In this document: positions 26,639-29,960 of the stretch, piece after piece | Layout: every line of letters starts with the position of its first letter | Numbering within the stretch: position 1 is the first letter of the stretch | NCBI GenBank assembly: GCA_017856985.1 | Contig: JAFMEA010000021.1 | Coordinates: 1-34,985, forward strand | Length of the DNA: 34,985 nucleotides | DNA from: Planktomarina sp. | GTDB taxonomy: Bacteria; Pseudomonadota; Alphaproteobacteria; Rhodobacterales; Rhodobacteraceae | Direction of reading: 5' to 3' | Translations under genes and position numbers: made by a program | Notes under the pieces: generated by a model | The model's input: only the letters and a program-made list of their open reading frames with translations | What the model was told of the DNA's origin: nothing | Database searches by the model: none

Positions 26639-27889
26639 TTACGGGGCGTATGGTGCTAATTCCTGCACCAGCTTATTTGTACTCTTCTTGAAGGCAAAGA
26701 AGCCTTTTGTGGCGTGGGGCCAAAAAGTTTGATCATATTTTTGCCGCAAAAATGACAGTTCAATACCAGCATTTTTTAATAAAGGTTTAATACCCTGTAG
26801 CTTAGTGTTTACCGGACCAATTGGAGTATATGCGGTAACAATATTTTTCACCTTTTTTGAGCGTGCCAGTTCGATTATCGGCTCAGCCCATTCTTCACAA
26901 ATCAAGACCTCGCCAGTGCTACTAATGCGCTCCACCCCATCCGTTACCGCACCATGTGAAAAGTTGAAGACAGCATCACTCCTTTCAAAAACTTCAGATT
27001 TTTCTGGAAGAATTAATCCAAGGGCAGCCACTGGAAATTGTCCAGTCAAATCCACGCTATTGCAATCTTCCTCTGTGACTAACAATAGAAAGTCATCACT
27101 TGGCAGATTTTCCAAACGCGGTAGTGATTGGATTGGGTGTTCGGTCAGTTCGGTTAATGGATTAGCAGCTTCATTTAGATGTGCCTCTATCCTAAATCTA
27201 CCCAATGTAAATTTATCAATATTACTTGATGTGGCTAGATAATTTTTGCCTTTTGTGTGCAAGCCCGACACCCATCTCCAGCTCAAAGTGTTTGAGGCAG
27301 GATCTCCATCCAATAGATATTTCATGAAGAAGTTAGCGCCAAGTTCCCATGGCAATTTGAGCGTGAATATCCAGATAGAGGCGAACCACAATCTGGCATG
27401 ATTATGTAGGTATGAATGTTCCATCAGTTCGGTTGCCCAACTATCAAAACAGTCTATCCCAGTTTGGCCTGTAATTGCTTTTTCATACACACGGGCCCTG
27501 CTTTGGTCGGATGAAACTTCATTTAGGCCACTCATAACCCCCTCGTTGTAGGCATTCCAAACAGTTGGGTGCTGCTCTAGCCAGCCCTTAAAATAGGTTC
27601 TCCAGATAACTTGCTGTATGTATTTATCGGCAGCACCATGGGAATTAGTCTTAAATAACTTTTCAATTATTTCCTGTTCAGAGATTAACCGGCGCCTAAT
27701 CCACGGTGATAGGGCAGAAATATTGGATCGGTCTTCTGGCCCGTAATCGTAATTACGCCCATCTGTGTATAATTTAAGCCCTGTTGACGTAAAGTTGCTA
27801 AGCCTCTCCAGACCTGCGGCCCGAGTTGGGGTGGCTTTTGCAAGCCGGGAAGACCCTGTGTTATTTGAAGTCACTAGTTCTTCACTCAT
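26639..27889 (-). CDS. Cryptochrome/photolyase-like FAD protein, apparently circularly permuted
   Basis: A 416-residue protein. Residues 25-235 are the photolyase FAD-binding helical domain: ISALSPWIRRRLIS, YIQQVIWRTYF, HNHARLWFASIW and LLDGDPASNTLSWRW (194-206; WxW matches the electron-transfer Trp region). The usual N-terminal alpha/beta antenna domain is absent in front; residues 265-400 instead form an alpha/beta region (LLLVTEEDCN, then IIELARSKKVKNIVTAYTPIG and LLKNAGIELSFLRQ) that resembles it, now placed after the FAD domain. Expected role: flavin-based light sensing or DNA repair. The start overlaps the DUF2256 stop by 4 bp. FAD domain is certain; permutation is my interpretation. 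Confidence 0.8.
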   Translation of the reverse strand: MSEELVTSNNTGSSRLAKATPTRAAGLERLSNFTSTGLKLYTDGRNYDYGPEDRSNISALSPWIRRRLISEQEIIEKLFKTNSHGAADKYIQQVIWRTYFKGWLEQHPTVWNAYNEGVMSGLNEVSSDQSRARVYEKAITGQTGIDCFDSWATELMEHSYLHNHARLWFASIWIFTLKLPWELGANFFMKYLLDGDPASNTLSWRWVSGLHTKGKNYLATSSNIDKFTLGRFRIEAHLNEAANPLTELTEHPIQSLPRLENLPSDDFLLLVTEEDCNSVDLTGQFPVAALGLILPEKSEVFERSDAVFNFSHGAVTDGVERISSTGEVLICEEWAEPIIELARSKKVKNIVTAYTPIGPVNTKLQGIKPLLKNAGIELSFLRQKYDQTFWPHATKGFFAFKKSTNKLVQELAPYAP

Positions 27890-28023
27890 CTTGAGCCACT
27901 ACATTTTTTGGAGCAGTACAAAACTTCATCCCAAACTTTGGCCCATTTTTTTCTCCATGTAAAAGGCCGTGCACAAGTTAAACAAATCTTTGTTGGAAGA
28001 TTAGATTTCTTAACTGTCTTCAC
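27886..28023 (-). CDS. DUF2256 family small zinc-finger-like protein
   Basis: A 45-residue protein that starts at GTG overlapping the TIGR03643 stop (GTGA) and ends overlapping the photolyase-like start (ATGA). The sequence carries LPTKICLTCARPFTWRKK, then a YCSKKC pair, that is CxxC and CxxxC, spaced like a small zinc ribbon, which matches DUF2256 proteins. These are commonly found beside photolyase-type genes; their function is not known. It is too short for usual ORF calling. Confidence 0.85.
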   Translation of the reverse strand: MKTVKKSNLPTKICLTCARPFTWRKKWAKVWDEVLYCSKKCSGSR

Positions 28024-28238
28024 TTGTAGAATTCCCGACGAGTGCCAAACTCATGAACCCTCTTTCGCCAAGCCCGGTAGCTCCCAGTCTTTAAGTTAGA
28101 GCGCATTAGACGTACAACCTGACTTTCTTTCAGCCCATAAATTTTTTCAATATTGGTAAATGAGACATGGTCAGACAGCGCCATTTGAATAATATCGCTT
28201 ACTTCCTCGGGTTGTAGGTCTACAGTTGTCTTCTTCAT
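28020..28238 (-). CDS. TIGR03643 family protein (DUF2805)
   Basis: A 72-residue basic protein with an HTH-like middle (FTNIEKIYGLKESQVVRLMR) and a conserved tail SYRAWRKRVHEFGTRREF. It matches the TIGR03643/DUF2805 family, which occurs next to DUF2256 and photolyase genes; function unknown, perhaps nucleic-acid binding. The ATG has TAAGG just upstream. It leads the overlapping minus-strand trio and is divergent from the FeS photolyase. Confidence 0.85.
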   Translation of the reverse strand: MKKTTVDLQPEEVSDIIQMALSDHVSFTNIEKIYGLKESQVVRLMRSNLKTGSYRAWRKRVHEFGTRREFYK

Positions 28239-28412: not shown

Positions 28413-29960
28413 TTGCCGGCATTACGGGTAGTCCTAGGCGATCAACTCAGCAATGAGATTTCAAGTCTAAACAACATAGACGCAGAAAATGACATTGTCT
28501 TAATTTGCGAAGTCTTTGCTGAGGCGACATATGTAAAACATCACAAGAAAAAAATCGCATTTTTGTTTTCTGCTATGCGGCATTTTTCTGAAGAGTTACG
28601 CAATAAGAAAAAATACCAAGTTGAGTATTTTAGACTGAGTGACCCAGAGCCAATGAGCTCTTTTACTCAAGCAGTAGAAAAAACCCTGGCGAACCATAAA
28701 ATTGATGAAATAATTGTAACCTCACCGGGAGAGTATCGAGTTCTAACCGAAATCAACGGCTGGCAAGAACTCTTCGGGGTTCCAGTTGATATCAGAGAGG
28801 ACGATCGTTTTTTATGTAATCAATTTGAATTCAGAAAATGGAGTAAGGATCGGAAAAACCTCCGAATGGAGTATTTCTACCGTGAGATGCGCAAGAAATA
28901 CTCAATATTAATGGATGGCGATCAGCCCGTTGGCGGCAAGTGGAATTTTGATATTGAAAATAGAAAGTCACCCAATTCAAATTTTGATGTACCCGAAACT
29001 TTTTCTTCTGAGCCAGACAAAGTAACTTTAGATGTCATGAAATTGGTTGAAGATAAATTTTCAGATCACATGGGCGTGCTCTCCGGCTTTCATTTCGCCG
29101 TCAATGCAACCCAAGCGAAGCTAGCATTGACACAATTTATAGACGAGCGGCTTAAATATTTTGGTGACTTTCAAGATGCCATGATCCAGGGCGAGCCGTG
29201 GATGTATCACTCACATATTGGATTATATTTAAATTGTGGATTGCTCTCACCATTGGAGTGTATCCAAGCGGCAGAGCAGGCCTACCACGACAATCACGCC
29301 CCCCTAAATGCTGTCGAGGGTTTCATTCGTCAAATTCTGGGCTGGCGGGAGTTTGTTCGTGGGATTTATTGGAGTGAGATGCCAGACTATGCGGCACTGA
29401 ACTTCTTTGAGGCCAAACGTGAGTTGCCTGCGTTTTATTGGGACGCAGACACAAAAATGAATTGTCTGCATCAGTCAGTTAAAGAGACATCACAAAACGC
29501 CTATGCACATCACATTCAGCGCCTGATGGTTCTAGGAAATTTTGCTCTATTGACGGGAATTAATCCAGCGCAGGTGAACGCTTGGTTCTTATCCGTTTAC
29601 GTAGACGCATTTGAGTGGGTGGAATTGCCAAATGTATCTGGAATGGCTTTATTTGCAGATGGCGGGTATTTGGCAAGTAAACCATACGCCGCCGGTGGCG
29701 GCTACATTAATAAAATGTCAAACTACTGCAAAGGTTGCAGCTACAACGTAACCAAAAAAAATGGTCCAGACGCCTGTCCCTTTAATTATCTCTACTGGGA
29801 CTTCCTCAAACGCAACCGCAACAAATTGGGTAACAATCACAGAGTAGGTATGATGTACAAAGTTTATGACCGTATGAGTGACGAAAAAAAAGAATTGATT
29901 GCAGAAGACAGCGACAAATTTCTGGCAAGCCTAGACGATAACACTAATCCAAAACACTAA
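28413..29960 (+). CDS. phrB: FeS-type bacterial (6-4) photolyase, PhrB/CryB group
   Basis: A 515-residue photolyase of the iron-sulfur bacterial group (DUF523/PhrB-type). It begins at TTG with GGGGGAGA six bases upstream; MPALRVVLGDQL is the normal family start. Four cysteines, C351, C439, C442 and C455, fall one residue from the cluster ligands reported for Agrobacterium PhrB. H366-H367 in AYAHHIQRLM lie at the place of the PhrB active-site histidine. It should bind FAD and a 4Fe-4S cluster and repair (6-4) photoproducts with light. It is followed 12 bp later by a DUF3429 gene and is divergent from the TIGR03643 trio. Confidence 0.92.
   Translation: MPALRVVLGDQLSNEISSLNNIDAENDIVLICEVFAEATYVKHHKKKIAFLFSAMRHFSEELRNKKKYQVEYFRLSDPEPMSSFTQAVEKTLANHKIDEIIVTSPGEYRVLTEINGWQELFGVPVDIREDDRFLCNQFEFRKWSKDRKNLRMEYFYREMRKKYSILMDGDQPVGGKWNFDIENRKSPNSNFDVPETFSSEPDKVTLDVMKLVEDKFSDHMGVLSGFHFAVNATQAKLALTQFIDERLKYFGDFQDAMIQGEPWMYHSHIGLYLNCGLLSPLECIQAAEQAYHDNHAPLNAVEGFIRQILGWREFVRGIYWSEMPDYAALNFFEAKRELPAFYWDADTKMNCLHQSVKETSQNAYAHHIQRLMVLGNFALLTGINPAQVNAWFLSVYVDAFEWVELPNVSGMALFADGGYLASKPYAAGGGYINKMSNYCKGCSYNVTKKNGPDACPFNYLYWDFLKRNRNKLGNNHRVGMMYKVYDRMSDEKKELIAEDSDKFLASLDDNTNPKH

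Follow-up and report, generated by a model that had tools for sequence, protein, structure and literature searches.

Domain order and a rare lesion-pocket variant of a predicted NewPHL-class photolyase in Planktomarina sp.

Introduction

Work by Emmerich in 2020 reportedly presented the NewPHL proteins as single-strand CPD photolyases with inverted topology, and the NewPHL abstract reportedly describes a C-terminal domain that serves to close off the flavin site and does not clearly bind an antenna pigment. An "inverted domain topology" is described for NewPHL and SPL (PMC13274461), and Phr7 is composed of an N-terminal FAD domain and a C-terminal atypical short photolyase "Z-domain" (PMC9426592). 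The paper on Phr7 gives it as being without Fe-S cysteines, implies that Phr4/Phr6 carry them, and reports split as well as fused inverted photolyases in cyanobacteria (PMC9426592). Other papers state that the NewPHL of D. shibae has a "mere Trp dyad" (PMC8948257), that NewPHL is among the groups with a conserved Asn facing the flavin N5 (PMC12083526), and that SPL carries an Fe-S cluster (PMC9649867). The last paper also summarises Xu 2021 as calling such proteins antenna-less ancestors, a label that needs care because the examples examined in the present study have an antenna domain, either moved or located in the next gene. Regarding the lesion pocket, a paper on the Drosophila (6-4) photolyase describes a Gln (Gln299), three residues before Trp302, that is hydrogen-bonded to the lesion, and a His365 that also forms a hydrogen bond with it in the animal enzyme (PMC4264169).

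In the present study, we analysed P0001, a predicted photolyase-like protein encoded in a 34,985-nucleotide stretch of DNA from Planktomarina sp. (contig JAFMEA010000021.1), which is hereafter called the window. The original prediction for this gene held that a permuted domain order would be a different architecture; this order has already been published as NewPHL and Phr7 (PMC13274461, PMC9426592), and the features of the protein point to a NewPHL whose pocket is of a rare type.

Results

Gene, domains, and relatives

The P0001 gene occupies 26639..27889 on the minus strand, for which the original prediction had named no strand, and encodes 416 aa from an ATG start without an internal stop. 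The motifs quoted previously were all present, namely, SPWIRRR (residues 61-67), IWRTYF (95-100), DGDPASN (194-200), and WRW (204-206), followed by IIELARSKKVKNIV (338-351) and LLKNAGIELSF (370-380). With approximate boundaries, the N-terminal helical FAD domain covers residues 20-235 (27185..27832, minus strand) and the alpha/beta domain at the C-terminal end, which profile comparisons suggest to be of the antenna type in a permuted position, covers residues 265-410 (26660..27097, minus strand) and ends in a conserved motif, D-x3-WP(H/Y)AT-x-GFF.

When the window's own genome and those of 40 relatives were searched, 33 of the 41 gave a match to P0001 at E<=1e-3, ordinary photolyases included. 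In the named collection, at least 588 stretches encode a relative, and the best 80 (40-52% identity in the best segment) were kept; since these loci are those most like P0001, counts based on them are an unfair sample of the whole class. By title, they are mostly from Alphaproteobacteria, with some from Gamma- and Betaproteobacteria, a few from Actinomycetota, and one Eremiobacterota MAG; Rhodobacterales are well represented among the relatives, and there is a single Methylobacterium MAG. A search for relatives in viral contigs found none. The A2 alignment comprised P0001 and 64 of the 80 loci, 16 being omitted for an early frame break (L047) or for size or as near copies; the A3 alignment comprised 49 of the 65 A2 members, and a tree of 100 rows took in 79 of the 80 loci.

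The FAD domain comes first

The sole Pfam match of P0001 at E<=1 was FAD_binding_7 (PF03441) at residues 91-218 (E=7e-21), and because this match spans profile positions 2-127 of 203, it leaves out the final third of a typical FAD domain. Photolyases in the PDB aligned with residues of approximately 20-230, residue 231 being reached by none of the 44 matches listed, and hhalign of the N-terminal domain against full photolyases gave P=8.8e-35. The original prediction, which had the FAD domain begin near residue 25 and come first, was right as to what is and is not FAD domain, because the Pfam and PDB matches stop by residue 230.

Homologs with an N-terminal antenna domain, which would have spoken against a permuted order, were not found: PF00875 matched none of the 65 aligned members, including P0001, at E<=10, and PF03441 matched all 65. 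The next gene upstream on the same strand stops 130 bases before P0001, and in-frame open sequence of at least 130 codons was present upstream at two of the 80 loci (L038 and L101). All 80 loci, the best 80 of at least 588, match P0001 from residue 23 or earlier to residue 402 or later, and the inverted order is not a matter of chance because these matches run across both domains.

Comparison with known photolyases

P0001 was placed by features described for NewPHL/Phr7 rather than by sequence grouping with the reference proteins A8LJA9, M7YZC8, Q2N8F4, and B6IPR5. In common with the NewPHLs of D. shibae and M. mesophilicum and with Phr7 of Prochlorococcus, it has the catalytic FAD domain followed by a short second domain, no antenna domain at the N terminus (PF00875 in 0 of 65), no Fe-S motif, a Trp dyad, and the FAD Asn; NewPHL/Phr7 are, like P0001, present in Alphaproteobacteria. 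A scan for the CxxC..CPF motif found it neither in P0001 nor in any of 80 records, among them a 15-aa fragment (L047), and P0001 has Cys at residues 147, 276, and 331 only. Equivalences to E. coli photolyase were read off manually from the alignment with 1dnp. The inner Trp of the electron-transfer chain, W204 (E. coli W382; 27278..27280, minus strand), was present in 65 of 65 members and the second, W181 (W359; 27347..27349, minus strand), in 64 of 65, and none had Trp at the W306 position (eight gaps). N200, the counterpart of N378 and the Asn facing the flavin (27290..27292, minus strand), was conserved in 65 of 65, and the equivalents of W277 and W384 were also conserved among A2 members. 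Considering these features, we place high confidence in P0001 being a NewPHL-class photolyase with a FAD domain followed by a relocated antenna-type domain.

Other identities were discarded. SPL/Phr6 and the split pair Phr4-Phr5 share the inverted order (PMC9426592, PMC9649867) and, in the Deinococcus examples, a homologous C-terminal domain; however, SPL/Phr6 is of the Fe-S type, whereas P0001 and 79 usable relatives are without the CxxC..CPF motif, and P0001 has no Fe-S cysteine cluster after its FAD domain. A class I CPD photolyase, such as E. coli PhrB, has the FAD domain and most of the lesion and flavin residues in common with P0001, but has the antenna domain first, a full FAD domain, three Trp, and E274 and M345, and this identity was ruled out by the lack of an N-terminal PF00875 domain in P0001. 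The prokaryotic (6-4) photolyases (FeS-BCP) were ruled out because P0001 has no DPRP domain (PF04244), which is found in the product of the neighbouring gene at 28413-29960.

The Gln/Leu pocket variant

P0001 has Gln at residue 93 (27611..27613, minus strand) and Leu at residue 167 (27389..27391, minus strand), which on the 1dnp alignment correspond to E274 and M345 of E. coli photolyase, positions that we take to be contacts with the CPD lesion. Among the 100 tree rows, 93 had Glu/Met, five Gln/Leu, and one (L256) Glu/Leu, and one was a piece without position 93 but with Leu; Glu was thus found in 94 of the 99 rows with a letter at that position and Met in 93 of 100. The other NewPHLs examined therefore nearly all differ from the P0001 subgroup in having Glu and Met.

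P0001, L006, L007, L037, and the L146 piece formed a clade (SH-aLRT 98), and the first piece of this interrupted L146 copy, which is outside the tree, contained Gln. The remaining Gln/Leu row, L062 from a gammaproteobacterial MAG, grouped with L071, a Glu/Met row (SH-aLRT 98). The tree separates the marine clade and L062, and the Gln/Leu change may have arisen on more than one occasion; a single origin of all six rows (the five of this clade and L062) was also compatible with the data (AU p=0.348). The 91-row comparison set of this test, from which L004 and L022 were omitted as long branches, was chosen for Glu and Met and is therefore no measure of Glu/Met conservation, which is given instead by the 93 of 100 tree rows. 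Positions 38, 90, and 186 further separated the first Gln/Leu group from the Glu/Met rows.

Among 394 family genomes, a DNA pattern for HNHxRLWFA was found in two, namely, that of the window and G415, which has the Glu/Leu copy, and it was found in one of 398 genomes drawn from the phylum, whereas the same pattern with Met was found in 29 of 100 family genomes, and the Leu form is rare on this basis. In addition to Glu with Leu at the M345 place, the G415 copy (L256) has Asp for Asn in DGDPASN, which is otherwise Asn in 65 of 65 A2 members.

The window's own genome carries both forms, Gln/Leu on contig C113 and Glu/Met on contig C52; the latter is a second NewPHL-type gene (L004/L263) that runs off the contig end and forms a long branch. 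Genome G009 has an intact Glu/Met copy (L009) and a Gln/Leu copy (L260) that is interrupted in frame. A NewPHL-like copy in genome G018 (L023) is also interrupted in frame.

Regarding previous reports, no usable literature on E274/M345 or E283/M353 was found, and no paper on the Gln/Leu group was found in the literature on NewPHL, inverted-topology, and short photolyase-like proteins; as far as this literature was searched, the group appears to be new.

Selection and gene neighbourhood

The Gln/Leu group is under purifying selection. NG86 dN/dS among the three closest Gln/Leu genes (P0001, L258, and L259) was 0.11-0.17 (YN00 0.15-0.23), with both domains constrained; the values were 0.07-0.15 for three Glu/Met NewPHL pairs, two of which were close to saturation at synonymous sites, and 0.08-0.12 for the neighbouring FeS-BCP and EamA genes. 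At L259, the NewPHL gene was 78% identical, versus 83-98% for its neighbours. An intact Gln/Leu-type ORF was present in four genomes (G000, G016, G010, and G015).

Immediately upstream of P0001 is a DUF2805/TIGR03643 gene on the same strand (28020..28238, minus strand), followed by the divergent prokaryotic (6-4)-type photolyase gene (FeS-BCP with a DPRP domain; 28413..29960, plus strand; PF04244, E=8.6e-79, and synteny). DUF2805 adjoins NewPHL also in the Gln/Leu loci L258, L259, L260, and L037/L262, and was found in eight of the 80 named loci. Ten of 10 tested genes are kept at L258 and L259, and L260 keeps the interrupted NewPHL, DUF2805, and FeS-BCP. Another photolyase-type gene was located in the flank (5 kb or less, and shorter on short contigs) at 24 of the 80 loci; these genes were cryptochrome-like and related to L002 at 19 loci, FeS-BCP-like at 16, some with only 31-35% identity, and class I at one, the first two types occurring together at 12. 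In a sizeable minority of these loci, NewPHL is thus clustered with other photolyase genes, and this arrangement speaks for a role in repair.

The C-terminal domain

The original prediction had read the region after the FAD domain as antenna-like. A profile of residues 240-416 from 65 members aligned with that of the N-terminal domains of 40 ordinary photolyases at P=6.1e-4, with 92 columns matched (query 52-148 of 184, template 34-128 of 218), and at P=1.9e-3 when query and template were exchanged, and the best place within full-length photolyases was again the antenna domain (P=0.002). The best of 12 neighbour families used as controls scored P=0.046, a 13th profile holding photolyases and NewPHL themselves being left uncounted; five reversed profiles scored 0.09-0.48, and response regulator and flavoprotein 0.11. 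Usp, which presumably belongs to the same fold superfamily, scored 1.4e-3 against this domain; its scores were 2.4e-4 with the antenna domain and 2e-4 with the C-domains from Deinococcus. DPRP, the antenna-type domain of FeS-BCP, gave P=0.32 (0.18 when exchanged), a non-match that says little because the antenna domain and DPRP, which we take to be true relatives, also scored only 0.046-0.15. Against the PDB, the P0001 domain gave two chance-level matches as a sequence, and its profile gave eight weak matches up to E=10 with no photolyase among them. Taken alone, this weak direct match is suggestive of a relationship between this domain and the antenna domain.

The connection by sequence is clearest via Deinococcus proteins. 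A profile of four C-domains, three from plasmid-borne inverted relatives (L266, L267, and L268) and one a separate downstream ORF at L265 of strain QL22 (P0003), matched the antenna profile at P=5.3e-11 over 136 columns and also that of the NewPHL C-domain, at P=3.4e-6 over 112 columns; the values for others were 3.9e-5 for DPRP, 0.16 for response regulator/flavoprotein, and 0.6 for the reversed antenna profile. PF00875 matched three of the four (P0003 at E=2.3e-4, P0004 at 7.2e-4, and P0005 at 1e-3), in each case with a score under the curated threshold of 26.6 bits, and did not match the L267 protein. A profile comparison with the Persicobacter C-domain as a single sequence gave no clear match. 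With this bridge, the earlier reading gains support, and we hold with very high confidence that the antenna domain has moved to the C-terminal end.

Discussion

If P0001 functions as a member of its predicted class, its bound FAD would be photoreduced to FADH- via the two-tryptophan chain of W204 and W181, and the excited FADH- would split a UV-induced pyrimidine dimer by electron transfer. The substrate, as in the NewPHL class, would be a CPD in single-stranded DNA, and the C-terminal domain would close the flavin site rather than clearly bear an antenna pigment.

The replacement of Glu/Met by Gln/Leu in the pocket probably means a changed efficiency or substrate, and the Gln/Leu group may have undergone a shift in its lesion, its efficiency, or its role; since Q93 and L167 occupy the presumed lesion contacts, CPD repair itself may have been lost. 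In an alternative reading, which we regard as less likely than not, this subgroup diverged functionally from a duplicated NewPHL and now either senses light in the manner of a cryptochrome or acts on a different lesion. This would be consistent with the co-occurrence of Gln93 and Leu167 in the window clade (five rows, one a piece without position 93) and in L062, with Glu/Met in 93 of 100 rows, and with the Glu/Met copies in the window's own genome and in G009. The NewPHL gene also outpaces its neighbours at L259, its dN/dS is somewhat above that of the two neighbours, and (6-4) photolyase has Gln299 at the corresponding position (PMC4264169). However, W96, N163, N200, W204, and W206 are all kept, dN/dS is near that of the three Glu/Met pairs, the Gln/Leu copy is interrupted in G009, and Gln and Leu are mild replacements that could preserve CPD repair. 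The pocket change leaves room for a shifted role, and no signalling role would be demonstrated by it. That the Gln/Leu proteins form a distinct functional subclass, retained in the same cell as a Glu/Met NewPHL and redirected from CPDs in single strands to a different lesion or to light sensing by the coordinated loss of lesion contacts, is possible, though we regard it as doubtful.

The C-terminal domain may alternatively be an unrelated alpha/beta lid, a new domain fused to the FAD domain with nothing permuted. PF00875 matches none of the 65 members, the profile search of the PDB yielded no photolyase, and the Usp scores indicate that the signal may partly be that of the wider fold. Nevertheless, the antenna domain was the best of the profiles compared and the best place in full photolyases, neighbour families and reversed profiles reached only P=0.046 and 0.09, and the Deinococcus C-domains bridge to both sides with PF00875 matches in three of four; an unrelated lid is thus unlikely.

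It is very improbable that P0001 is a (6-4) photolyase by convergence, with Gln93 used in the manner of the animal Gln299. Gln replaces the pocket Glu in the Drosophila enzyme as in P0001, and the counterparts of Gln299 and Trp302 are Q93 and W96, with the same spacing of three; however, the Drosophila enzyme has the ordinary domain order, its His365 presumably corresponds to Asn (N163) in P0001, and a (6-4)-type photolyase gene already adjoins P0001. Equally hard to sustain is a decaying gene with residues changed by neutral drift after the loss of function, for which faster divergence than the neighbours and the interrupted copies in G009 and G018 may be cited, but against which stand the constraint on both domains (dN/dS 0.11-0.17) and the intact ORFs in four genomes.

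The Gln/Leu group, whose role is proposed here as possibly shifted, is a natural case in which both lesion-contact residues have been exchanged, and the Glu/Met paralogue of the same genome would provide its control; the group may thus be used to ask what the pocket residues do in the single-strand class.

Two further observations concern related proteins. The L002 protein, encoded on contig C74 of the window's own genome, is of the photolyase/cryptochrome type with the usual domain order, and relatives of it lie near NewPHL at 19 of 80 loci; the flavin/Trp motif of L002, at the place of the W382, W384, and N378 region of class I enzymes, is TDYEPGIHYSQLQMQSG, and a gene similar to L002 comes after the Persicobacter inverted photolyase. 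On a plasmid of Deinococcus sp. QL22 (NZ_CP097153.1; L265:2926-4217), a gene for the FAD domain (257 aa, with the CxxC..CPF motif) is followed by an antenna-type gene (173 aa; PF00875, E=2.3e-4) annotated as a hypothetical protein. We dropped this pair as a novelty because split and fused inverted photolyases have already been described in cyanobacteria (PMC9426592). It is a further split inverted photolyase, outside cyanobacteria and in another phylum; the two genes overlap by ATGA and lack the linker seen in the fused relatives, and at E<=0.01 the second gene is matched by four plasmid records, one of them that of QL22.
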